DNA from: Blautia sp.
GTDB lineage: Bacteria > Bacillota > Clostridia > Lachnospirales > Lachnospiraceae
Reading direction: 5' to 3'
NCBI GenBank assembly: GCA_017463155.1
Contig: JAFTPT010000044.1
Location: 1-64,000 of the forward strand
Length of the DNA stretch: 64,000 nt
Part shown: piece after piece, positions 12,863 through 24,882 of the stretch
Position numbering within the stretch: the stretch's first letter is position 1
How the letters are laid out: each line of letters starts with the position of its first letter
Notes under the pieces: model-generated
Database searches by the model: none
The model's input: only the letters and a program-made list of their open reading frames with translations
Told to the model about the DNA's origin: nothing
Translations under genes and position numbers: made by a program

Positions 12863-13471
12863 TCATAGCATTCCATTTATAACCGGCAGCAGCTGTGAGG
12901 TGAGGACGGCGTGACCTTTTCCGGTCAGGTGAACGCCGTCGATGGTGAGGGCGGACGCGGGTCCCGCAGCCATGAGGGGCTCCTGGAGAGCCACGAAAGG
13001 ACATCCGGCTTCCTCGGCCAGCGAACGGATCCGATCCGACATCCGCATACGCAGAGACTGCCAGGTACGCATCTCCCAGGGCTCGTCAAACAGGAATGGT
13101 TCCATGACGAGAAAGGGGATCCTTTCTTCCCGGAAAACAGACAGAAGATGCCGGTAATTCTCCTCGAAGCGGTCAAGCTGCTTTTCCACAAAGCGGGGCG
13201 AACCGTGGGCGTCCATGATCATGGCCACGTCGTTGATCCCGATCAGGATCGTGACCAGGTCAGGCTCCGAATGGAGATACTCGGAGGCGGCTCTTTCCAG
13301 AAGCCGCAGCACGGTAAAGCCGTCCACGCCTTTATTGATGAAACGGATCTCGGAAGAGCGTTCACGAAAATGGCTGGCAAGCAGGCTTACATAACCGTTT
13401 CCAAGCGGCGGAAAGTCAAAAAGCCGGCCGCAGTCCGTAATACTGTCGCCGATGCAGAGGATTGTTTTCAT
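12863..13471 (-). CDS. SGNH/GDSL-family hydrolase
   Basis: The 202-residue protein begins MKTILCIGDSITD; GDS carries the nucleophile Ser in block I. A GINDV segment (block III) provides the oxyanion Asn, and DGVHLTGKGH near the C-terminus gives the catalytic Asp and His (block V). These enzymes are esterases or lipases of broad range, often removing acetyl groups from sugars. There is no signal peptide, so it should be cytoplasmic. Its promoter region is shared with the divergent pilus locus and contains Spo0A boxes. Confidence 0.85.
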   Translation of the reverse strand: MKTILCIGDSITDCGRLFDFPPLGNGYVSLLASHFRERSSEIRFINKGVDGFTVLRLLERAASEYLHSEPDLVTILIGINDVAMIMDAHGSPRFVEKQLDRFEENYRHLLSVFREERIPFLVMEPFLFDEPWEMRTWQSLRMRMSDRIRSLAEEAGCPFVALQEPLMAAGPASALTIDGVHLTGKGHAVLTSQLLPVINGML

Positions 13472-13507: not shown

Positions 13508-13536
13508 ATGGTAGCATGGAAGAACGAAGCGGTCAA
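13508..13536 (-). promoter_or_regulatory. Promoter of the SGNH hydrolase gene
   Basis: On the minus strand TTGACC (plus 13531-13536) and TACCAT (plus 13508-13513) are 17 bp apart. The first Spo0A box starts 2 bp upstream of this -35 element. Confidence 0.5.
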
Positions 13537-13537
13537 G

Positions 13538-13594
13538 TGTCGAATATTGTCGAAAAATAGGAGAAAATGTCGAAATTTTTATGGCGATTCGACA
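13538..13594 (+). promoter_or_regulatory. Cluster of four Spo0A boxes between esterase and pilus genes
   Basis: The heptamer TGTCGAA, the exact Spo0A (0A) box, occurs at 13538-13544, 13548-13554 and 13568-13574, and in reverse at 13588-13594. The starts are 10, 20 and 20 bp apart, so all lie on the same helical face. The last two form the inner arms of a larger inverted repeat (13557-13605) whose outer arms are ATAGGAGA and TCTCCTAT. Spo0A is the master regulator of sporulation and stationary-phase genes; whether it activates or represses here cannot be told. Confidence 0.75.
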
Positions 13595-13604
13595 AAATCT
13601 CCTA

Positions 13605-13634
13605 TGGACACGAGGATAATTCATGGAGTATACT
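13605..13634 (+). promoter_or_regulatory. Candidate promoter of the Tad pilus operon
   Basis: TGGACA (13605-13610) and TATACT (13629-13634) are 18 bp apart, just downstream of the 0A boxes. The leader to the first start codon is about 67 nt. Confidence 0.5.
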
Positions 13635-13707: not shown

Positions 13708-14145
13708 ATGGATCTCTCTTTCTGCTTTCCGGCTGTGGTATCCTCCGTGGCCATGGTGATGGACCTTGACAGTGACCGGGTCGATAACGGATGGCTGTTC
13801 TTCTCGGCAGCGGCCGGCGTCCTCCTTCATCTGGCCGGAGGCACATTTCCGCCCTGGAGTTCCTGCCTTGCAGGGATGCTGCTGCCGGTCCTCCTTCTCG
13901 GCCCTTTTTTCTGCTTCCGGATGCTGGGGGCCGGGGACGTCAAGCTTTTCTGTACTCTGGGCCTCATGCTGGGAGCCGACCGCATCCTGACCTGCATGTT
14001 CGTGTCGTTTCTTTCCGGCGGCATCTACGTGATCGTCCGGATGGCAGCGGACCACTTTGTACGCCGGCAGATCCGTGCCGGAACCATTCACTTCACCATA
14101 CCCATCTGTCTCAGCATCTATCTTCACCTTGGAGGTGTCTTTTGA
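13708..14145 (+). CDS. Type IV prepilin peptidase (A24 family), first copy
   Basis: A24 peptidases cut the leader from Flp-type prepilins at the membrane. The 145-residue protein has about four hydrophobic segments and the catalytic GxGD motif as GAGDVKLF; an early DLDSDRV gives the other Asp. It is the small form without the methylase domain, as in TadV/CpaA. ATG 13708 is preceded by AAAGGAG at 13695-13701. The stop overlaps the TTG start of the next gene. A second, different A24 gene lies at 22723. Confidence 0.82.
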   Translation: MDLSFCFPAVVSSVAMVMDLDSDRVDNGWLFFSAAAGVLLHLAGGTFPPWSSCLAGMLLPVLLLGPFFCFRMLGAGDVKLFCTLGLMLGADRILTCMFVSFLSGGIYVIVRMAADHFVRRQIRAGTIHFTIPICLSIYLHLGGVF

Positions 14146-15167
14146 AAAGAAGTATCTTTGCCGTCTGTGATCTTGAGGCGTCCTATGCCGTCAATTTCAT
14201 GGAATTCCTGAATCAGAAAAAGAACATCCCGTTTGAGATCCAGGCCTTCACAAGCGTTGAAACACTGATCTCCTACGCGGCTTCGAACCCGATCGAGCTT
14301 CTGCTGATCTCGGATAAAGCGATGTGCCGGGAGGTGCGGGAGCTGAAGATCGGAAAGATCGTGATCCTGTCGGAGGGGGCCCGTATGCCCGGACTGGATC
14401 AGTACCCAAGTGTATACAAGTATCAGGCCTCCTCGGATGTGATCCGGGAGGTGATGAGCTGCTACGGGGCAAGAGAGGAGGAAGTTCAGGCAAGGTTCCC
14501 GGTATTGAAGAAGACTACGGAGATACTGGGCGTCTATTCGCCGCTCCGGCGATGCCTGAAAACCTCGATTGCCCTGACGATCGGACAGATCCTGGCACGG
14601 CAGAAACCGACCCTGTACCTGAACATGGAGGAGTATGCAGGGTTTGAGGAAATGTTCGGGAGAAGCTTTGACGAGAATCTGAGCGATCTTCTGTACTACA
14701 CCGGCCAGGAAAATCCGAATATCGTCCACCGCATGAACGGTATGATCCAGAATGTGGGGAATCTTGATTTTATCCCGCCGGTCCGTTCTCCCTGGGATAT
14801 CCGGAGTACGGGCTATGAGGACTGGAAAAGACTTTTGACGGAGATCATCGGGAACAGCTGCTATGAGGTGCTGGTGCTGGATCTCGGAAGTGAAGTGGAT
14901 GAGCTTTTCAAGCTCCTGAAGCTCTGCGACCGGATCTACATGCCGGTACTGCAGGATACGATGTCCCAGTGCAAGCTCCAGCAGTATGAGAAACTGCAGA
15001 AGGCCTGGGACTGTGAGAAAATCATGGAAAAGACGACGAAACTCACCCCGCCGTTCCATGCGGGGAGGCAGACCTCCGGCACGACCTACGCGGAGCAGCT
15101 CCTGTGGAGCGAGCTCGGGGATTATCTGCGGCAGGTCCTGCGCCGGGAGGGAAGAAAGATCATATGA
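14142..15167 (+). CDS. TadZ/CpaE-like pilus-localisation ATPase homologue
   Basis: The 341-residue protein has an N-terminal receiver-like part (about 1-115, starting FAVCDLEASYAVNFMEFL) and a C-terminal MinD/ParA-like part. The P-loop region GVYSPLRRCLKTS keeps the final KTS but lacks the KGG signature of the deviant Walker A, so ATP use is doubtful. EVLVLDLGSE resembles the Walker B strand. TTG 14142 was chosen because GGAGGTG (14131-14137) precedes it and it overlaps the previous stop. TadZ proteins place the pilus machine in the cell. The next tad gene begins 2 kb away, beyond a gene on the other strand. Confidence 0.68.
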   Translation: MKRSIFAVCDLEASYAVNFMEFLNQKKNIPFEIQAFTSVETLISYAASNPIELLLISDKAMCREVRELKIGKIVILSEGARMPGLDQYPSVYKYQASSDVIREVMSCYGAREEEVQARFPVLKKTTEILGVYSPLRRCLKTSIALTIGQILARQKPTLYLNMEEYAGFEEMFGRSFDENLSDLLYYTGQENPNIVHRMNGMIQNVGNLDFIPPVRSPWDIRSTGYEDWKRLLTEIIGNSCYEVLVLDLGSEVDELFKLLKLCDRIYMPVLQDTMSQCKLQQYEKLQKAWDCEKIMEKTTKLTPPFHAGRQTSGTTYAEQLLWSELGDYLRQVLRREGRKII

Positions 15168-15174
15168 TCACAGG

Positions 15175-17004
15175 TCACTGCTCCTGTGTGGGAGTGACCG
15201 GGATGGAGGTAAGCAGACGGAAATACTTGTCGTGTTTCTGCTCGAATTCCGCGTGGTACTGCTGGTCATCCGAATGATGCAGATTGTGGATGTACTGGTG
15301 CTCCTTACCGTTGATGGAATCGTCCGTCTTTCCCAGCATATAGACGCCCAGGTCCGAACACTGGTCGGAGATGCGCTCCATATGCAGCAGGATATTCTGG
15401 AATTCGATCCCGTTGAAGACGTCACACAGATCGTGGGTCATCCGGTACACATGGCGGTTGCGGAGATCATCGATCAGTTCATCGATGACTTCCTCGAGAG
15501 GCTCGATCCTCCTGGCGAGCCTGGCCTGACCGGTCTTGTAGGCTTCGGCGGAAAGCTCGAGGATATCGCGGATCGCGTCGGAAGCCACGTGGAGCTCGTC
15601 CTGCGCCGTTCTGGAGAATTCTTTTCCGGTCTCCCGCTGGGTGCGGATGTTCTCGGTAATGTTGACAGCCAGGTCACCGATCCGCTCGAAGGCGGTGAGG
15701 GCTTTCAGCTGGAAGCTGATGTTCCGGTTGTCTCTCTCCAGCGTGACATTGGGAGAGATCTGTACGATGTACTGGTTGGCCGCGTCGGCCATCCGGTCGA
15801 GCAGGTGTTCACGCTCATCGATCCGGGTGTAGCGGTTCTCATCAAATTCGAACAGCTGCTGCATGCAGGCGTTGAAATTGTGGATGGCAACATCCGCCAT
15901 GTTCCCGATCACATGCTCGGTCTCGTTGAGAGCCAGTGCCGGGTTGCTGATCAGATGCTGGTCAAGCTCGCGCAGGCTCTTTTCGATCTCGTAGTCTTCT
16001 TCGTTTACAGGCTTGTCGGGAACGATCTTTTCCGCCAGCAGTGCAAATACATTGCTGAAGGGCAGAAGCACGACGGCCGGGATCAGACGGAAGAGGCCGT
16101 GGATATTGGCCACGCCGCCGGAATTGAGGCTGCGGTGCCAGAGCTCATCGTTGATGATGCCGGTCCCGCGAAGGATCCCGATCACGATAAAGATGAGGGC
16201 GGCCGCACAGACATTATAGATAATGTGGATGAGGCAGGTCCGGATCTGCTCCGACTTGGCACCGATACGGCAGACCAGGTAGGTGGTGATGCAGTCACCG
16301 ATGTTGACGCCGACGATCACTGCGAACACGCCGGAGAAGGTGACGCCCACGCTGCTGGCGATGGACTGCAGGATACCGACCACGGCCGAGGAGCTCTGGA
16401 TGATCCCGGTCACGCCGGCACCGGCCAGGAATCCGAGGAAATGGTTATCCTCAAAGGAAACAAGGAGCCGGCTCAGGGCGTCGCTCATCGTTCCGACGGC
16501 GCTGCTCATGTTCATGAGGCCGACAAACAGGATGCCGAATCCGATGCAGATCGTGCCGACAGAGCTGACGGTCCGTTTGTTCTTTCCGATAAACATCAGA
16601 AGGAAGATGCCGATGACCAGGGCCAGGGGGGCCAGGTTGTCCGATTTAAAGAAATACAGGATACTGCTGCTTCCGGCGTTGACATCCATCAGACGGATGA
16701 TCTGAGATGTGATGGCCGTACCGACGTTCGCGCCGAATACGATCCCGATGGACTGGCGGAAGGTCAGGAATCCGGCACCGACCAGACCGACGGTCAATAC
16801 GATCGTGGCGGTGGAGCTCTGGATCATGCACGTCACCAGGGTGCCCAGGATAAAGCCCATGACGGGTTTGTTGGTCACCTTGGCCAGGGCCGTTTTCATC
16901 GCCTGGCCGGAACAGCTCTTCAGGCCGTCCCCCATCAGGCGCATACCGTAGAGAAACATGGCGAGTCCGCCAAGAAGTGAAACAATACGATAAAAAATAT
17001 CCAC
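15175..17004 (-). CDS. Na/Pi cotransporter family protein with PhoU-like domain
   Basis: The 609-residue protein starts with eight or so membrane segments containing the duplicated Na/Pi-cotransporter motif (GxxxTxxxQSSTATI near 65-75 and GIIQSSSAVVGILQS in the second half). After about 340 residues a soluble helical part follows that resembles PhoU. Members import phosphate with sodium. It faces the tad genes tail to tail on one side (8 bp) and diverges on the other, so it interrupts the pilus locus. Its own promoter lies at 17043-17071. Confidence 0.88.
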   Translation of the reverse strand: MDIFYRIVSLLGGLAMFLYGMRLMGDGLKSCSGQAMKTALAKVTNKPVMGFILGTLVTCMIQSSTATIVLTVGLVGAGFLTFRQSIGIVFGANVGTAITSQIIRLMDVNAGSSSILYFFKSDNLAPLALVIGIFLLMFIGKNKRTVSSVGTICIGFGILFVGLMNMSSAVGTMSDALSRLLVSFEDNHFLGFLAGAGVTGIIQSSSAVVGILQSIASSVGVTFSGVFAVIVGVNIGDCITTYLVCRIGAKSEQIRTCLIHIIYNVCAAALIFIVIGILRGTGIINDELWHRSLNSGGVANIHGLFRLIPAVVLLPFSNVFALLAEKIVPDKPVNEEDYEIEKSLRELDQHLISNPALALNETEHVIGNMADVAIHNFNACMQQLFEFDENRYTRIDEREHLLDRMADAANQYIVQISPNVTLERDNRNISFQLKALTAFERIGDLAVNITENIRTQRETGKEFSRTAQDELHVASDAIRDILELSAEAYKTGQARLARRIEPLEEVIDELIDDLRNRHVYRMTHDLCDVFNGIEFQNILLHMERISDQCSDLGVYMLGKTDDSINGKEHQYIHNLHHSDDQQYHAEFEQKHDKYFRLLTSIPVTPTQEQ

Positions 17005-17042: not shown

Positions 17043-17071
17043 ATTGTACCATATAGATAAGGATTTGTCGA
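17043..17071 (-). promoter_or_regulatory. Promoter of the Na/Pi cotransporter gene
   Basis: On the minus strand TCGACA (plus 17066-17071) and TACAAT (plus 17043-17048) are 17 bp apart. The -35 region overlaps a near match to the Spo0A box (TGTCGAT). Confidence 0.6.
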
Positions 17072-17156
17072 TGTACTTATGTAAAGTGCAAAGCATATGA
17101 CTTGTATAAAAATCCGTACATGCTTCGCATACATTCGGGAAGAAAGGATGGAAGAA

Positions 17157-18353
17157 ATGGAAAAAAAGACCTTCCGGCTTCTCCGGGAAAAGCTGATGGA
17201 ACAGCTGGACATGGCCCGGGAGCTCTCGGATGAGGAGATCCTCGACCTGATCGACCGGCTGATCACGACAGAGCTTCGGGACCCTTCCCATACCCTGAGG
17301 GAGAAGCTGCATCTTCGGCAGGAACTGTTCTATTCCGTCCGGAAGCTGGATGTACTGCAGGAGCTTCTGGAGGACGACAGCGTGACCGAGATCATGGTCA
17401 ACGGCCCCGACCACATCTTTATCGAGCGGGAGGGACGGCTGACAAAATGGCATGAGACATTCACCTCGCGTGAAAAGCTGGAGGATGTGATCCAGCAGAT
17501 CGCCGGCAAATGCAACCGGGTCATCAACGAGTCCATGCCGATCGTGGACGCCCGTCTCAAAAGCGGCGAAAGAGTCAATGCCATCGTCCCGCCGGTGGCG
17601 CTTGACGGGCCGTATCTCACCATCCGCCGTTTTCCGGAGCATCCGCTGACGATGGACCGCCTGATCGCGATCGGAAGCATCACGGAGGAGTGCGCGGCTT
17701 TTCTGAAGCGGCTGGTCAAGGCCCGTTATTCCATTATGGTCGGAGGCGGGACAGGCTGCGGGAAGACCACGTTTCTGGGGGCGCTTTCGGAGTTTATTCC
17801 CCGTGACGAACGGATCATAACGATCGAAGACAACGCGGAGCTCCGCCTGCAGGGGATCGACAATCTGGTGCGGCTGGAGGCCAGGATGGCCGGCGTCAAC
17901 GGGAGCACGCCCGTGACGATCCGGGACCTGATCCGTACGGCGCTCCGGGCACGCCCCGACAGGATCATCGTCGGCGAATGCCGCGGGGAGGAAGCCCTGG
18001 ATCTTCTGCAGGCTCTGAACACAGGACATGACGGAAGCCTGTCCACCGCCCATGCGAACAGTACACAGGATATGCTTTCAAGACTCGAAACGATGGTGCT
18101 GATGGGCGCGACGCTGCCGCTCCCGGCGATCCGCCGGCAGATCGCCTCCGGAGTCGATATCTTCATTCACCTCGGCCGGATGCAGGATAAGAGCCGGAAG
18201 CTTCTGGAGGTGGCGGAGGTGGAGGGCTTTACGGAGGAAGAGATCCGGCTTCGTCCTCTTTACGTCTGGGAATACGGGACGGGCCTCGTCAAAAAGAATG
18301 AACTGCTGCATCGCGAGAAGCTCAGGAGAGCAGGAATCCATGAAGAAGGATAA
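17157..18353 (+). CDS. cpaF: Tad pilus assembly ATPase CpaF/TadA
   Basis: This secretion ATPase (398 residues) powers Flp pilus assembly. An N-terminal helical domain precedes the ATPase core, with Walker A GGGTGCGKTT near 196, the Asp box TIEDNAEL, Walker B region RPDRIIVGECRG and the His box GHDGSLSTAHAN. ATG 17157 was preferred over 17148 because AAAGGA is then 9 nt upstream rather than touching the codon. The end overlaps tadB by 14 bp. The common name tadA is avoided here because tRNA adenosine deaminase (39436) shares it. Confidence 0.93.
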   Translation: MEKKTFRLLREKLMEQLDMARELSDEEILDLIDRLITTELRDPSHTLREKLHLRQELFYSVRKLDVLQELLEDDSVTEIMVNGPDHIFIEREGRLTKWHETFTSREKLEDVIQQIAGKCNRVINESMPIVDARLKSGERVNAIVPPVALDGPYLTIRRFPEHPLTMDRLIAIGSITEECAAFLKRLVKARYSIMVGGGTGCGKTTFLGALSEFIPRDERIITIEDNAELRLQGIDNLVRLEARMAGVNGSTPVTIRDLIRTALRARPDRIIVGECRGEEALDLLQALNTGHDGSLSTAHANSTQDMLSRLETMVLMGATLPLPAIRRQIASGVDIFIHLGRMQDKSRKLLEVAEVEGFTEEEIRLRPLYVWEYGTGLVKKNELLHREKLRRAGIHEEG

Positions 18354-19146
18354 CAGAGGCCGGATCCGGCGGGAGATCTTATCCGCCGCGGACCCGGAGA
18401 TAAACAGACAGGATTATGACGAATATACGCCCATGCTCCGCGAATGGGCCATGTGGACGGCCAGGGGGATCCTCCTCGCCGCCGCCGCTGCCTGGCTTTT
18501 TTACGAATCGCCCTGGGCGCTCCCGGCCTTCTGCTGGGTGCCCTGGTTCTACGCAAGGCAGCAGAAAAGGCAGAGGATCGCCCGGCGTAAGAGAGAACTG
18601 GATCACCAGTTCAAGGATGCGCTTTCCTCCATGAGCGTGGCGCTCCAGGCCGGCTACTCGGCGGAGAATGCGGTCGTGAACTGCGCGCGCGAGATGGAAA
18701 AGCTCTTTGGAAAAGAAGCGGATATCACCAGGGAATTCCGGTATATGGAGAAACAGCTGCACGTCAGTGTACCGGTGGAGACACTGCTCCTTGATCTGGG
18801 AAACCGGAGCCATGTGGAGGACATAAGCGACTTTGCCGCCGTTTTCTATACGGCCCGTCATACCGGCGGAGATCTGGCGGGGATCCTCAAAAAGACCGGG
18901 GAGATGCTGGGGGACAAGATCGACGTTTCCAGAGAGATCGAGGCCGTCCTGGCGGCAAAACGGTCCGAACAGCGGATCATGAGCCTGATGCCGGCCGGGA
19001 TCATCGTCTATCTGAAGCTGACTTCCCCGGGCTTTCTGGGGATCATGTACGGGAATCCTGTGGGGATCGCGGCCATGACAGCCGCGCTGCTTTTATATGC
19101 CTTTGCCTGGTGGCTGGGCAGGCGAATCGTCGAGATCGAGGTGTAA
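18340..19146 (+). CDS. tadB: Tad pilus inner-membrane platform protein TadB
   Basis: TadB and TadC form the membrane platform on which the CpaF ATPase acts. The 268-residue protein has membrane segments near 40-70, a T2SSF (GspF) domain with the LDHQFKDALSSMSVALQAGYS helix near 88-108, and two C-terminal membrane segments (about 215-262). ATG 18340 overlaps cpaF by 14 bp and is preceded by AGGAGAGCAGGA. It is followed by tadC after 3 bp. Confidence 0.88.
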   Translation: MKKDNRGRIRREILSAADPEINRQDYDEYTPMLREWAMWTARGILLAAAAAWLFYESPWALPAFCWVPWFYARQQKRQRIARRKRELDHQFKDALSSMSVALQAGYSAENAVVNCAREMEKLFGKEADITREFRYMEKQLHVSVPVETLLLDLGNRSHVEDISDFAAVFYTARHTGGDLAGILKKTGEMLGDKIDVSREIEAVLAAKRSEQRIMSLMPAGIIVYLKLTSPGFLGIMYGNPVGIAAMTAALLLYAFAWWLGRRIVEIEV

Positions 19147-19149
19147 AGC

Positions 19150-20166
19150 ATGTGGATACATATCATTTTGTTTCTGGGGATCCTCCTCGCAGCGGCCGCC
19201 GTGCGGTTTCACGTTTTCCCGGGGATCGGGGAGCTCCCCGATCTGAAGCTTGCGCTCCTGGTCGTCTTTCTCGGTAATCTGCTGGGAGCGGCCGTCACCT
19301 GGCAGTCCATGAGCAAAGCCGCCTGTCCGGCGGGAACAGCCTTTCCGAGGGAGGAGATGCCGTACGAGGAAACCCTCCTCGTGCAGCGGGGGACCGAGGA
19401 GATGTCCCTGACGGTGCGGATCCCGGAAAAGGAAAGGGAGGAAGAGCCTGTACGTGAGCCGGAGAAAGAAAAGGTTGAAAGCCCCGCCGGACGGCTGCAG
19501 GAGGAGATCTTCCGCTACAACCAGGAGAAACAGGACCCGGATTACTTTTACCTGCCGGATTCCTGGGAGGGCGATGCCATTTACTGGAGGAAACCGAAGG
19601 ATAACAGCGGCCTTCTGCTGGCCGCGCTTGCCCTTCTCGGCGGTACTTTTCTGCCGCTTCTAAAGGAGCGGGAGAAGGAAAAACAGAAAGAGAGGCGGCG
19701 GGAGCAGATGCTGCAGGATTATCCCGGGATCCTGCTCAAGTTCACCTTGCTCATCCAGGCCGGAATGCCTGCCCGCTCCGCCTTCCGGAAGATCGCCGGC
19801 GACTATGAAAAAGGACAGCCGGGTAAAAAAAGAGAAGCCTACGAGGAGATCCGGCATACCTGCCGGGAGATGGATACGGGGATCAGCGAGGCCGAGGCCT
19901 ACAGGCATTTCGGCGAACGCTGCCTGCAGGCCCGGTACCGGACCTTTTCGATCCTGCTGGTCCAGAACCTGCAGAAGGGAAGCCGGCAGATGGCGGCGCT
20001 TCTGGAAAGAGAGTCCACGGAGGCCTGGGAGGAACGGAAGCGGAATGCCCGGGTCATGGGCGAGATGGCCGTGACAAAGCTGCTGGTCCCGATGATGCTG
20101 ATGCTGCTTGTGGTGATGGCCGTGGTCATGGTCCCGGCGCTTCTGTCCTTTTACGGGGGCGTGTAG
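19150..20166 (+). CDS. tadC: Tad pilus inner-membrane platform protein TadC
   Basis: The 338-residue protein starts with two membrane segments, followed by a long Glu/Lys-rich cytoplasmic insert (about 60-150) containing REKEREEEPVREPEKEK. A third membrane segment near 155-172 precedes the T2SSF domain, with KFTLLIQAGMPARSAFRKIA near 197-216, and a final hydrophobic helix. It pairs with TadB as the assembly platform. The charged insert is longer than in typical TadC proteins and probably gives it contacts with the ATPase; that is inference. Confidence 0.82.
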   Translation: MWIHIILFLGILLAAAAVRFHVFPGIGELPDLKLALLVVFLGNLLGAAVTWQSMSKAACPAGTAFPREEMPYEETLLVQRGTEEMSLTVRIPEKEREEEPVREPEKEKVESPAGRLQEEIFRYNQEKQDPDYFYLPDSWEGDAIYWRKPKDNSGLLLAALALLGGTFLPLLKEREKEKQKERRREQMLQDYPGILLKFTLLIQAGMPARSAFRKIAGDYEKGQPGKKREAYEEIRHTCREMDTGISEAEAYRHFGERCLQARYRTFSILLVQNLQKGSRQMAALLERESTEAWEERKRNARVMGEMAVTKLLVPMMLMLLVVMAVVMVPALLSFYGGV

Positions 20167-20431: not shown

Positions 20432-21850
20432 ATGCAAGGATGGAAAAAAGGCAGTATCACGGTTTTTCTGGCGCTGATGCTGGGACTTCTGGTGTCGCTT
20501 CTGGCAGCGTCGATCGAGTCCGTACGGATGGCGGCGGCCCGCGCCCAGATCCTCTGCGGAATGGACGCCGGCCTTTTTTCCCTCTTCGGGCAGTATGACC
20601 GGGAGCTTTTTGACCGCTATGACCTTCTCGCGCTTGCCGGGTCGGCCGATGGGTCCGATCCCGGTCTGGCTGCCCTGTACCACTGCTTCATGGATTACAT
20701 GGAACCGGTCCTGTCCGAAAATTCGCAGATGCTTTCCGCTTCATTCGGGGGCTTCTCCGGGTACGAGCTGATGACGGACGACGGCGGATCGCCGTTCCTT
20801 TCCCAGGTGCGTGACTGGGCAGAGAAGACATCCGGCGAGGAGCCGTCTCTCCCGGATTCCGAAGCCTGTTCAAAAGCCGGGCGATGGCTCCGAAAGGGCA
20901 GGAGACGCAGGAACAAAAACTGGTATGCTTCCTATCAGGCCGTCCTGGTCGAAGCGCTCGCGGCCGGTGAGGCGGCGGCCGAAGGAGAACTTACGAGCGG
21001 GGAGGCGGGCTTTCTGTATGCGGGGAACGGCGGGGATCCGCTGGGCGTCGTGTACCGGTACGCACAGCTGGATCTTCGGGCACAGGTCTTTTCGAAGGGC
21101 ATGCATCTTTCCAAAGAGAGGATCACCGCGCCGCTTGCGGATAGAAGCCTGCGTACGGGGATGCCCATGCCGGCGCCCCGGAGGAGGACGGCCTCCAGGA
21201 GGGAGCTGACAGCCTATCTTTCCGCCCACCTGGGGGATTACCGGTCACCGGCACTGTCCGGGCTTTCCTGCCAGCTTGAATACGTGCTCTGTCAAAAAGG
21301 GGCGGACCTTCCGAACATGGAGGAGACGATCCGTACGCTGTATCTGCTCCGCCTGGGCGCCAATGAGGAGAGCATGAAGAAGGACGCCTATGCCGGCAGG
21401 GCCGTCTCTGCCGTGGCGGAAAACATCAGCCGCGGGTATCTGGTCCCGCCGGATCAGGACAGGCTTTCCGAAGCGATCATGGACGCCTGGATCTATGTGG
21501 AGAGCATTCTGGACGTCCGGCAGCTCCTTCTGGGAGGATGCATCCCGGAGGAGAAGGGAGGGAGATGGCAGGCTGTACCCTCGGCCCTTGGGGACGCACT
21601 GAAAAAAGAGCAGGACATCCGCGGGAGCGGCAGGGATTACAGATGGTACCTGCAGCTGCTTTTGTTGCGGATGCCGGTTAAAAAGCTGGCTGAAGGCGGA
21701 ATGAGCATCATCGAGCACGCCGTCAGGAGCAGCGGACGGTCCGGCTTCTGTCTGGACGCCTGCGTGACGGCCGCCGAGCTGTCCGCCGATGTGACAGCCA
21801 ACCGGCGAAAGACCTTCGAGGTGACCAGATCCCGGCGCTACGACCCGTGA
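20432..21850 (+). CDS. DUF5702 protein, probable Tad-associated pseudopilin
   Basis: The 472-residue protein starts with GSITVFLALMLGLLVSLL, a prepilin-like cleavage region and hydrophobic helix, and continues as the DUF5702 domain found in clostridial tad clusters. An RxxxxAARAQILCGMDAGLFSLFG region follows the helix. The rest is soluble and mixed helical, presumably outside the membrane. Its place between flp and the TadE-like genes suggests a minor pilin or tip component; no function has been shown that I know of. Confidence 0.75.
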   Translation: MQGWKKGSITVFLALMLGLLVSLLAASIESVRMAAARAQILCGMDAGLFSLFGQYDRELFDRYDLLALAGSADGSDPGLAALYHCFMDYMEPVLSENSQMLSASFGGFSGYELMTDDGGSPFLSQVRDWAEKTSGEEPSLPDSEACSKAGRWLRKGRRRRNKNWYASYQAVLVEALAAGEAAAEGELTSGEAGFLYAGNGGDPLGVVYRYAQLDLRAQVFSKGMHLSKERITAPLADRSLRTGMPMPAPRRRTASRRELTAYLSAHLGDYRSPALSGLSCQLEYVLCQKGADLPNMEETIRTLYLLRLGANEESMKKDAYAGRAVSAVAENISRGYLVPPDQDRLSEAIMDAWIYVESILDVRQLLLGGCIPEEKGGRWQAVPSALGDALKKEQDIRGSGRDYRWYLQLLLLRMPVKKLAEGGMSIIEHAVRSSGRSGFCLDACVTAAELSADVTANRRKTFEVTRSRRYDP

Positions 21851-21950
21851 TGTGTGGAAATATCTTTCCGGAGAGGCTGCCGTACGGCAGGGAGGACTCC
21901 TGAAGCATGGAATGTACAGGACAGGGTGTACCTGTCCGGAAAGGATCAAA

Positions 21951-22703
21951 ATGAAAATGACGAAAGGAGAAGAGAAGAAAAAACGCCGGATTCCGGTTTC
22001 GGCTCCGAAGAGACCGGTTCCGCTTTCCGGAAGGATATTTCTGCACATCCTCGGAAAACTGCGAAAAGGGTCGCTGACGGTGGAGGCGGCGCTGGTGCTC
22101 CCGCTGTTTCTGTTCGGCATGATCACCATGCTGTCCCTGATGGACGTCTACCGGCTGCAGACAGAGCATCTGCTCCTGGCGCTTTCCGCGGCCGAAAGCG
22201 CGGCCGCGAAGATCACGGATCCGGGTGGACAGACGGAGGTAAGAAAGACCGAAACCTACGTATTCAGTCCCCCGGGCGGCTTTTTTATGTCCGGAGGCAT
22301 TCCGCTCTCGACTTCGGTCACCGTCCATGCCTGGAACGGGGCGGATCCCGGAGAGATTGCCGGATACGGGACGGGCCTGCCGCAGGAGAAAATGGTCTAT
22401 ATGGCCCGCTACGGAAATGTCATCCATACGGATCTCTCCTGCAGCTATCTTTCCCTCTCGATCCACCAGGTCCCGGGGGCGCAGGCCGTGAAGCTGCACA
22501 ATAAGTACGGGCAGAGCTATCATCCTTGCGAATCCTGCAGCCGGGGGAAGGCTCCGGCGGGTGTCGTCTATGTCACGGAGGAGGGGACAAGGTATCATAA
22601 CCAGGCGACGTGCAGCCGTCTGAAACGGACCGTACGCCTGGTCCCGGAATCCGAGGCGGGCGCCTGCCGTCCGTGCAGCCGCTGCGGGGGAGAGCATCAC
22701 TGA
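21951..22703 (+). CDS. TadE-like pseudopilin with two Cys/His repeat motifs
   Basis: Near residues 42-66, KGSLTVEAALVLPLFLFGM is a TadE-type cleavage and membrane helix. The C-terminal half carries two similar units: one with IHTDLSCSYL then YHPCESCSRG, and a second with YHNQATCSRLKR then CRPCSRCGG. Each unit gives a Cys in a YH/IH..C..L pattern plus a CxxC pair, which looks like a metal-binding site. ATG 21951 was chosen because GGAAAGGA precedes it; an upstream GTG at 21852 has no ribosome binding site. Length is 250 residues. TadE proteins are minor pilins needed for pilus formation. Confidence 0.68.
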   Translation: MKMTKGEEKKKRRIPVSAPKRPVPLSGRIFLHILGKLRKGSLTVEAALVLPLFLFGMITMLSLMDVYRLQTEHLLLALSAAESAAAKITDPGGQTEVRKTETYVFSPPGGFFMSGGIPLSTSVTVHAWNGADPGEIAGYGTGLPQEKMVYMARYGNVIHTDLSCSYLSLSIHQVPGAQAVKLHNKYGQSYHPCESCSRGKAPAGVVYVTEEGTRYHNQATCSRLKRTVRLVPESEAGACRPCSRCGGEHH

Positions 22704-22722
22704 AAAAGGAGGAAGGAAAACG

Positions 22723-23133
22723 ATGTGGCCGGTATTCTGGATAGGTATGGGCATTAATTTCTGTACGGATCTTCGCAGAAGGGAGATCTCTTTATCCGCG
22801 ACAGGCATAATGGCGTTTGTCAGGCTGCTGTCGCTTCAATTCGGGAGAGGAGCCGGTTTCGCGGCCCTTTCCGCGGAATATGCGTTTTCGATCCTGCCGG
22901 GAGGACTCCTGGCGGCGGCCAGCCTTCTGACGGGAGGAGATCCGGGGATGGGGGACGCGCTCCTGCTGACCGTGATCGGTCTCTATTTTCCGCCGGTCAG
23001 CATTCTCATGATCCTCGGACGCACGCTCCTGCTCGTCGGGCTGTGGGGGATCGCGGGGCTCCTCTCACACAGGGGAAAGGAGATCCCGATGGTTCCTTTC
23101 CTTTGCGCGGCCTGCCTGGGAGAACTGCTGTGA
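22723..23133 (+). CDS. Type IV prepilin peptidase (A24 family), second copy
   Basis: The 136-residue membrane protein has CTDLRRREIS (about 12-21, first catalytic Asp) and GDPGMGDALLLTVIG (about 66-80, with the GxGD catalytic Asp). This is the small TadV-like form. It differs from the gene at 13708, so the locus encodes two peptidases, perhaps with separate substrates among the pilin and the TadE-like proteins. An AAGGAGGAAGG ribosome binding site precedes ATG 22723. The stop overlaps the GTG of the next gene. Confidence 0.78.
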   Translation: MWPVFWIGMGINFCTDLRRREISLSATGIMAFVRLLSLQFGRGAGFAALSAEYAFSILPGGLLAAASLLTGGDPGMGDALLLTVIGLYFPPVSILMILGRTLLLVGLWGIAGLLSHRGKEIPMVPFLCAACLGELL

Positions 23134-23582
23134 AGAGGAAGCTCCGGCGGATCGGCCGGATACTGAAAAAGGGGAGCCTCTCGGTGGAGGCGGCCTGTGT
23201 GGTCCCCTTTGTGATCATGATCCTGATGGTCATGATCTATCTGTGTTTTTATATACACAACCGGAGCTGGCTCTGTTCGGCGGCCTGCGAGGCGGCTCTC
23301 TGCGGGAGTCTGGAGGCAGGCAGCGGGACCGGTCACGTACGGGAACGCGCACAGGAAAGGGCTGAAGAGCTGGGAAACACAGGCTTTTTCGGCGCGTCGG
23401 ACATAGCCGTCAAGGTACGGTGCCAAAGCAGTGTGCAGGTCGCTTACCAGCTTGACACAAAGTCCATGCTCGGCTATGGAGACAGCCTTTCGGTCAGCGG
23501 CTCTTCACAGATCATACGTCCGGAGGAGCGGCTCCGCCGGCAGAAAAGAGGGAAGGGGGAAACGCATGAAAGCGGAATATAA
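23130..23582 (+). CDS. TadE-family pseudopilin
   Basis: The 150-residue protein has KKGSLSVEAACVVPFVIMI at about 14-32, the TadE leader and helix with the Glu at the fifth position after the cut. A soluble tail follows. The start is GTG 23130, overlapping the preceding stop as GTGA, with GGGAG 8 nt upstream. Its end overlaps the DUF6382-FHA gene by 17 bp. It is presumably a minor pilin processed by one of the two A24 peptidases. Confidence 0.75.
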   Translation: MKRKLRRIGRILKKGSLSVEAACVVPFVIMILMVMIYLCFYIHNRSWLCSAACEAALCGSLEAGSGTGHVRERAQERAEELGNTGFFGASDIAVKVRCQSSVQVAYQLDTKSMLGYGDSLSVSGSSQIIRPEERLRRQKRGKGETHESGI

Positions 23583-24882
23583 GCGGGATCTGAATCACAG
23601 CTATCTCATCCTGCGGGGCAGGGAGGACGCGCAGGAGACCTACCAGGTCCGTATGCTGACGGGCGGTCATATCCCGTCGATCCTTCCCTGCAGGATCCAG
23701 GGGGTGGACGGGAGCTTTCTGTACTATTATGACATCACCTCCCGGCAGTCCCTGGATACGATCTATGAAGGAAAAAAGCTGCAGGATACGGATCTGCAGC
23801 TTTTGTTTTCCGGGATCTCCATGGTCCTGGAGGAGATGGAGGAGTACCTGATGGATCCGGGAAAGCTCCTTCTGTCCCCGGAGTTCGTCTTTGTCGATCC
23901 GGCGCCCGGGCAGGTGCGCTTTCTGTGGTTTCCGGAGCAGGAGGGGGACCTGCAGAAAGAATTCCTGGAGCTGACGGAATACCTGCTGCCGCGGATCGAT
24001 CACAAAAGCTCCGCGGCCGTGCGGGTGGGCTACGGCGTCTACAGGCATATCCTGGAGGGCAGCTTTCAGCCGGAGACGGTCCGCCGGATCCTGTATGAAC
24101 AGACCGGCGGGGACGAAGAGGCGCCGGAGGAAGAACAAAAGGAACCGGGCGGCGTCCCGGATACGGAGGATAGGATGAAAGACTTATTTGACCTTGCGGC
24201 GTCCGTGCCGGAAAAACAAAAAGGACCCGGCAGAAAGCTCCTGCTTCTTTGCATCCCCGTACTGCTGCTGGTGCTTGTGATGGCAGGCCGGTTTTACGGA
24301 TATCTGCCGGGCTTTTCGGCATTGGCGGCCGCGGGAGCGGCAGGCGCTGTACTGCTCACGGGAGCAGCCGCCTGCGCGGTCGCGGACCGGATCCGGAAGA
24401 AGAAACAGAAGGAGCCGGATGCACACGACATGCCGGCCATGCCGGCGCCCCTGCCGCCGGTCCGCCCGGAGCCGGAGGAAGGGTATACGGAGTATTCTTT
24501 TTTTACGGGATACAAAGAAGAGGAGGATGACGGAGACGGGGAGACAAAATTCCTGTACATGCCCCCGCAGGTGTCGCGGCCGAGACTTGTGAGCCGGGAG
24601 AGCGGTCTGCGTGAAGATATCCTGCTCGACAAGGAGCTGCTGATCATCGGGAAGCTGAGCGGCAGCACGGACGTTCGGATCAATCTTCCCACGATCAGCC
24701 GGATGCATGCCCGGATCCGGAAAAAAGAGGAGACCTGGTACCTGCGGGATCTAAGCTCCCGGAACGGGACGTACGTGAACGGACGGCTTCTGGAGGAAGG
24801 CGAAGAGTGCGCGCTTGCGGACGGGGACGAGGTGTGCTTTGCGGACGCGTCCTATGTCTTTCACGAAGAAGACAAAGGTTGA
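23566..24882 (+). CDS. DUF6382 and FHA domain membrane protein
   Basis: The 438-residue protein has an N-terminal DUF6382-like domain (about 1-170, beginning MKAEYKRDLNHSYLIL), then two hydrophobic segments (about 225-275) and a C-terminal FHA domain (about 360-437). The FHA core residues are present: LLIIGKL, SRMHARI and SSRNGTYVNG, which together read phosphothreonine. It probably links the pilus locus to Ser/Thr kinase signalling; no kinase gene lies in this window. ATG 23566 has GGAAGGGGG just upstream. It is the last gene of the tad run. Confidence 0.82.
   Translation: MKAEYKRDLNHSYLILRGREDAQETYQVRMLTGGHIPSILPCRIQGVDGSFLYYYDITSRQSLDTIYEGKKLQDTDLQLLFSGISMVLEEMEEYLMDPGKLLLSPEFVFVDPAPGQVRFLWFPEQEGDLQKEFLELTEYLLPRIDHKSSAAVRVGYGVYRHILEGSFQPETVRRILYEQTGGDEEAPEEEQKEPGGVPDTEDRMKDLFDLAASVPEKQKGPGRKLLLLCIPVLLLVLVMAGRFYGYLPGFSALAAAGAAGAVLLTGAAACAVADRIRKKKQKEPDAHDMPAMPAPLPPVRPEPEEGYTEYSFFTGYKEEEDDGDGETKFLYMPPQVSRPRLVSRESGLREDILLDKELLIIGKLSGSTDVRINLPTISRMHARIRKKEETWYLRDLSSRNGTYVNGRLLEEGEECALADGDEVCFADASYVFHEEDKG

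Follow-up and report, generated by a model that had tools for sequence, protein, structure and literature searches.

Surface pili in the gut genus Blautia may be under the control of Spo0A, the master regulator of sporulation and stationary phase. In a 64,000-nucleotide stretch of a Blautia genome (hereafter the window), four exact copies of the 0A-box core TGTCGAA stand between divergent predicted promoters, one of a hydrolase gene and the other of a Tad pilus locus, and boxes in the same helical phase recur before tad loci across the genus. We hypothesize that the boxes form an activating operator for a protein of the Spo0A family, and that an ancestral Spo0A-to-pilus circuit was probably kept in this lineage after sporulation was lost, uncoupled from phosphorylation. 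Subunits of the Spo0A DNA-binding domain would line up along a single face of the DNA helix at the TGTCGAA boxes, at least one turn ahead of the -35 element, and from there would touch RNA polymerase carrying sigma-A, both at the plus-strand promoter of tad and at the minus-strand promoter of the hydrolase gene. The wiring of Spo0A to tad would be ancestral in Blautia; in the window species and its relatives with an eroded receiver, sporulation would have been lost and Spo0A cut down to its DNA-binding domain and half a receiver. The eroded protein would no longer be switched by normal phosphorylation and would be active whenever present. It would have been retained, together with tandem boxes of greater number and quality, to activate surface structures, controlled by its own level and probably autoregulated. 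The proposal is a testable one, and it would directly connect a regulator of sporulation with the surface pili of a genus that is common in the gut.

The box array between the hydrolase and tad genes

The boxes lie at 13538..13544, 13548..13554 and 13568..13574 on the plus strand and, reversed, at 13588..13594 on the minus strand, in steps of 10, 20 and 20 bp; tandem boxes in 10-bp steps are a mark of 0A-box operators. Box 4 ends 10 bp before the -35 element of a predicted sigma-A promoter of the tad genes (TGGACA-18-TATACT, 13605..13634, plus strand), from which boxes 1, 2 and 3 are separated by 60, 50 and 30 bp; the same three boxes lie 1, 11 and 31 bp from the -35 element of a predicted sigma-A promoter of the hydrolase gene (TTGACC-17-TACCAT, 13508..13536, minus strand). 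A scan of 401 bp yielded three promoter-like sites where 0.5 would be expected. As a word, TGTCGAA is not enriched in the window overall (nine exact copies against 8.49 expected from shuffles), and about 6e-7 clusters of four copies in 57 bp are expected per window under a Poisson model at the window's own rate. An earlier note on this DNA had reported the four exact copies at these positions, judged their clustering unlikely by chance and placed candidate promoters on both sides, and all three statements are borne out. Chance clustering is ruled out by the Poisson expectation, the shuffles and the conservation of phase in congeners, and coding constraint by the intergenic position of the boxes and the presence of both orientations. 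An inverted repeat spanning boxes 3 and 4 (13557..13605) has arms of 18 nt, 13557-13574 and 13588-13605, that are 83% complementary; each arm consists of a box and a ATAGGAGA extension, and the same extension is found before tad in the sister genomes G039 and G093.

The gene on the minus strand encodes a GDSL/SGNH hydrolase (12863..13471; PF13472). On the plus strand the tad genes begin with a prepilin peptidase (13708..14145; PF01478), its start picked by eye from the ribosome-binding site AAAGGAG, and a TadZ-like gene (14142..15167), named by its position and matching neither Pfam nor NCBIfam families at E 0.001. A convergent gene for a Na/Pi cotransporter with PhoU domains (15175..17004, minus strand) lies between tadZ and tadA, the gene for a TadA-type ATPase (17097..18353, plus strand; PF00437), which is followed on the same strand by two T2SSF membrane proteins of TadB/TadC type (18298..20166) and by the rest of the cluster (20432..24882), comprising a DUF5702 protein, an unknown protein, an A24-peptidase-like protein below cut-off, TadE and a DUF6382-FHA protein. 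By Pfam the locus has the TadA-type ATPase, two T2SSF proteins, prepilin peptidase and TadE of a Tad pilus locus; its TadA scores 289 against TIGR03819, under the cut-off of 373. In 30 of 31 loci checked for this arrangement (L177 ends before tadA, and L192 is not titled Blautia) tadA stands close behind tadZ; in the window the cotransporter gene intervenes, so that the four-box promoter would directly drive only two tad genes, the prepilin peptidase and the TadZ-like gene that lie behind it. The region before tadA in the window holds a single box with one mismatch (17066-17072).

With respect to the estimated tad start site, the nearest box is centred at about -48 to -50. In Bacillus subtilis a TTCGACA box with its centre at -46 serves to activate sinI, as given in the accessible portion of PMC11264516, and the Spo0A DNA-binding domain without receiver binds its targets without phosphorylation, as given in that of PMC3485338. 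On these two findings we interpret the boxes as an activating operator and expect the eroded protein to act whenever it is present. Repressor sites, by comparison, usually overlap the -10 element or come after it. That the boxes are instead a Spo0A repressor site, at which the bound protein blocks one or both of the divergent promoters, appears rather unlikely: boxes 1 and 2, at 1 and 11 bp from the hydrolase -35 element, could occlude polymerase, and Spo0A is described as both repressing and activating in the portion of PMC11264516 available, but the boxes before tad stand upstream of the -35 element in a fixed phase, mostly at 9, 19 and 29-30 bp or at 10-11, 20 and 30 bp, which fits activation.

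Boxes before tad loci in Blautia and beyond

TadZ-like relatives are present in 55 of the 64 genomes of the genus, the window's genome (G000) included, and after exclusion of seven of the 60 matches as weak or at contig ends (one in G090, two in G006, three in G046 and the second match in G093), 53 tad loci were used. Between -900 and -440 of tadZ, pairs of boxes in 10-bp phase with at most two mismatches occur in 17 of these 53 loci; 200 rounds of shuffling gave 0.21 on average (never more than two) and 150 permuted motifs gave 0.35 on average (at most seven). The step of 10 bp yields these 17 loci, and other steps from 7 to 30 yield none to seven. A promoter-like site precedes tad in 52 of the 53 loci, and the best site has TGGACA as its -35 element in 43 and is exactly TGGACA-17-TATAAT in 34, the search itself having favoured TTGACA or TGGACA at this element. 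Near-consensus promoters, with at most one mismatch and a spacer of 17 or 18 bp, are found at 48 loci and not at the other five, and at 37 of the 48 there is a box no more than 75 bp upstream. Altogether 55 boxes, 26 of them exact, lie at the 48 promoters, and 50 of the 55 are at 9, 0 or 1 (modulo 10) from the -35 element, although these counts are not independent, the congeneric genomes being interrelated and many of them incomplete. When one locus is taken per cluster of similar sequence (31 loci), boxes are present at 22 of them, 34 boxes in all, of which 29 keep the phase (binomial p 3e-11). As a control, 78 promoter-like sites with at most two mismatches, from the window and the flanks of the named loci, had three boxes, none exact, and at the strictness of the tad set none of 12 such sites had a box.

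Direct boxes in the congeners stand at 9 and 19 bp, or at 29/30 and 39/40 bp, from the -35 element, and reversed boxes at 10/11, 20, 30, 40 and 50 bp. Box positions vary between species and the helical phase relative to the -35 element is constant, and such varied arrangements in a single phase are as expected from turnover of true sites; the comparison across the genus, one of sequences, says that the boxes before tad should be real sites. The conservation before tad loci of relatives for which the earlier note had called is found here far above chance, in the 17 loci with phased pairs and the 37 promoters with a box. Counting against the operator reading, 11 of the 48 Blautia tad promoters have no box within one mismatch, and G018 and G030, both with an eroded Spo0A, have only one-mismatch boxes at tad and none in phase, that of G030 being a single box 23 bp from the -35 element.

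The same comparison bears on whether the main target of the boxes is the GDSL hydrolase gene, their place beside tad being incidental, which we consider improbable. Three of the four boxes do suit the minus-strand promoter in orientation and spacing (gaps of 1, 11 and 31 bp), yet phased boxes before tad are recurrent across the genus, and in G039 and G093 boxes turned toward the tad promoter lie 10, 30 and 50 bp from it, with box 4 of the window at the same 10-bp gap.

Alignment with the TadZ-like protein gave 80 tad loci. After removal of 31 that duplicate loci of the genus set, 49 remained, none titled Blautia. A promoter-like site is present in 48 of these, and with only two of 15 boxes within one mismatch in phase (phase was counted by hand), the Spo0A-tad link would be one of genus level, and the phased tad operator, as far as seen, a feature of Blautia. 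Six of the loci, mostly Fusicatenibacter, have one box 6 bp before TGGACA. The Fusicatenibacter-type tad promoters L206, L207, L209, L211, L214 and L219 share a CAATTCACAAA element further upstream of the box.

Spo0A-type proteins, receiver erosion and spore genes

The earlier note presupposed a Spo0A gene in the same genome, and G000 (3.07 Mb in 55 contigs, 92% complete) encodes two proteins with the Spo0A DNA-binding domain, PF08769. The longer one, on contig C6, follows recN, scores 112 bits for PF08769 (cut-off 25) and keeps the recognition helix RVERGIRHAI. Its receiver (PF00072) reaches 21.8 bits, below the cut-off of 30.2, and covers only positions 1-49 of 111; the second half is deleted in the alignment, and normal phosphorylation should therefore not work. 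Against the equivalog model TIGR02875 the protein scores 164.7, where the curated cut-off is 200, and from these scores it is filed as Spo0A-derived, not as Spo0A proper. A frameshifted full receiver was ruled out, there being no remnant in other frames and ten other genomes sharing the deletion.

The second protein is a stand-alone Spo0A_C domain of about 120 aa with no receiver, and it is unlikely that this protein, and not the eroded Spo0A, occupies the boxes and controls tad. It is encoded in G000, short-frame matches of the same kind occur in most congeners, and its own gene is preceded by an array of 10-bp units that includes exact TGTCGAA boxes; but its recognition helix is different (IEHNIRTVV), its match to the Spo0A structure 1lq1 is far weaker (E 8e-8 against 5e-31 for the eroded Spo0A), and Spo0A may be what binds at the array. 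A 10-bp pair is found before the gene in only one of the 16 congeneric copies scanned (G040), so that autoregulation of this gene is not claimed beyond G000. The array itself (contig C5:20395-20441; L002 about 1900-1980) consists of some eight consecutive 10-bp units, TGTCGAAACA-like, which decay toward the gene.

Receiver status across the 64 genomes was judged by alignment for 42 and only by a normal open frame of at least 273 aa for 17; the other five (G005, G045, G084, G091 and G092) have no whole readable spo0A. The second receiver half is absent in 11 of the 64, namely G000, G002, G017, G018, G026, G030, G039, G048, G085, G090 and G093. As regards the receiver residues that we take to matter, the position of the phosphorylated Asp is kept in five of these eroded proteins and lost in six, and the later receiver motifs are gone in all 11. 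In a tree of 47 Spo0A proteins the 11 eroded ones lie on one side of a branch (100/99), with long branches of their own, a topology compatible with a single origin of receiver erosion rather than proof of it.

Estimates of dN/dS are well below 1: G002/G026, the closest eroded pair, gives 0.08 (half receiver with linker) and 0.04 (DNA-binding domain), G039/G093 gives 0.15 and 0.25, and G000/G048 gives 0.27 for the DNA-binding domain; in the remaining eroded pairs silent sites are saturated in at least one part. On these values the eroded Spo0A looks maintained and not a pseudogene, yet under looser constraint: where computable, its DNA-binding domain gives 0.04-0.27, against 0.007-0.009 in full-length pairs, a difference that counts against the operator reading.

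SpoIVA and SpoIVB, which together were taken to mark a sporulating Firmicute, have no matches in G000, where at 92% completeness an assembly gap is possible for each, nor in any of the 11 eroded genomes, several of which are incomplete, so that single absences are weak. Eight other genomes are also without both, and four of them (G031, G035, G038 and G086) have a full receiver. Because SpoIVA and SpoIVB were not found and half of the receiver is deleted, the G000 regulator is, by prediction, not a working sporulation switch. The tie that the earlier note drew between the pilus and the sporulation and stationary-phase master regulator thus stands in part: the 0A core match, the Spo0A_C proteins encoded and the phased boxes recurrent before tad speak for a regulator of this family, while its role as a sporulation switch does not hold up and only two tad genes lie directly behind the promoter.

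The same losses could mean that neither the boxes nor the eroded Spo0A has a role today, both being decaying relics of sporulation. The missing SpoIVA and SpoIVB, the deletion of half the receiver and a constraint on the DNA-binding domain weaker than in full-length Spo0A would agree with this; we nevertheless hold it to be highly improbable, since most eroded genomes have more exact and phased boxes and dN/dS is well below 1 in both the half receiver and the DNA-binding domain where computable. The sequence record suggests instead that the eroded Spo0A was kept for the control of surface structures in place of sporulation.

Box enrichment, further candidate targets and known systems

Phased pairs with at most one mismatch average 2.73 per Mb in the 11 eroded genomes and 0.51 in the 53 others (Mann-Whitney p 9e-6), about a fivefold difference, whereas control pairs of the reversed motif number 0.80 and 0.86 per Mb, respectively. 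Some genomes run against this trend: among the eroded, G030 has no phased pair and G018, G039 and G048 have three each, and among the others G023 has eight, G035 seven and G028 six. The enrichment may represent one evolutionary event, the eroded genomes possibly being one lineage. Before spo0A itself, 10-bp phased pairs (each box with at most one mismatch) occur in five of the 11 eroded genomes (G000, G002, G026, G085 and G090) and in one of the 22 other genomes looked at (G082).

G000 has 11 phased pairs in six clusters that look intergenic: at tad and the hydrolase, at spo0A itself, at the stand-alone Spo0A_C gene, at a sigma factor nearest to SigE/SigK and below their cut-offs (141.9 against 339), at a SipW-related signal peptidase with a BsaA-like gene, the latter below its family cut-off, and at a nuclease-like gene pair named by eye. 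This last cluster (contig C41:54819-54855; L007) has four phased TGTCGAA/TGTCGGA units between divergent genes that resemble, by eye, Rpn/PD-(D/E)XK. A pair spaced by 30 bp precedes an ABC-2 transporter gene of polysaccharide-export type, below the NCBIfam cut-off. When two mismatches are allowed, 8 of the 15 G000 loci looked at are inside predicted genes, as for chance sites.

Exact pairs in the sister genomes stand before sigma factors (G002, G026 and G090), a Ser/Thr kinase gene (G085, G026 and G002), which in G085 and G026 adjoins an exporter-like gene by eye, the gene for an FHA protein with a VWA-like part below cut-off (G085, and by eye G002), the tad-type prepilin peptidase of G026 (found via the boxes and not included in the tad counts), a T2SSF gene of G090, and an 8-oxoguanine glycosylase gene (G026, and by eye G002). 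These candidate targets come from 19 stretches chosen among the pairs listed, 15 of them from eroded genomes, the rest having unclear or unrelated neighbours, and they are a sample, not a regulon. In two sister genomes (L255 and L261) the exact 0A pair at the glycosylase gene lies between it and a divergent gene that is small heat-shock-like by eye. A diverged sigma-E/K-like factor is found behind 0A boxes in four genomes without SpoIVA or SpoIVB matches (L164:3266-3922, L254, L257 and L263).

Tentatively, we propose a fuller history, which is conceivable though somewhat short of probable: in a Blautia lineage past sporulation, half of the receiver was deleted once and the rest remained under selection, and the lost phospho-dimerisation was offset by more numerous and more exact tandem 0A boxes. 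The outcome would be a phosphorylation-free Spo0A with a rewired surface regulon (Tad pilus, SipW-BsaA matrix, polysaccharide export and a sigma-E/K-like factor) and self-feedback on spo0A. Such a lineage would be a natural experiment on a master regulator after its main programme is lost, in which Spo0A sheds its switch and keeps DNA binding while the sites it binds grow sharper. Comparison of Blautia species carrying full-length Spo0A with the related eroded species then makes it possible to test whether phospho-dimerisation is traded off against operator quality.

Two regulators invite comparison, Clostridioides difficile Spo0A, which has a full receiver, and Caulobacter CtrA, which also keeps its receiver and is unrelated to Blautia Spo0A, as is its phylum. 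Full-text searching, in which few subscription papers are covered, gave no paper on a Spo0A-Tad link among the matches listed, in agreement with the earlier note, which knew of no description of a Spo0A-pilus link; with the same coverage, no paper on Blautia and Tad pili was found. Co-mentions, judged from the accessible portions, are in a Caulobacter paper that cites Spo0A as a comparison (PMC11264516) and another that names Spo0A and Tad in separate contexts. An eroded Spo0A receiver is not described in the available portions of PMC8340488, PMC3533761 and PMC6136694.

In the CtrA control of pilA in Caulobacter, as presented in the available text of PMC11264516, a global regulator likewise has sites ahead of a pilin gene. 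The C. difficile Spo0A regulon, in the portion of PMC3485338 at hand, has in common with it the core TGTCGAA, direct binding by the DNA-binding domain and a site upstream of spo0A; there Spo0A governs sporulation, and the word 'pili' is absent from the main text as far as available. Sigma-A promoters of the B. subtilis sinI type share the 7-bp core, a reversed TTCGACA box upstream of the -35 element and the geometry of activation (PMC11264516, in part), whereas in Blautia the putative target is a Tad pilus operon, preceded by an array of several boxes in phase, and the regulator is one without half of its receiver. Among gut former spore-formers, finally, a high score went with the presence of spo0A, or a low score with its absence, in 1343 of 1358 genomes, and 15 low-scoring genomes kept spo0A, according to the accessible part of PMC8340488; the Blautia case differs in that spo0A is both kept and eroded.
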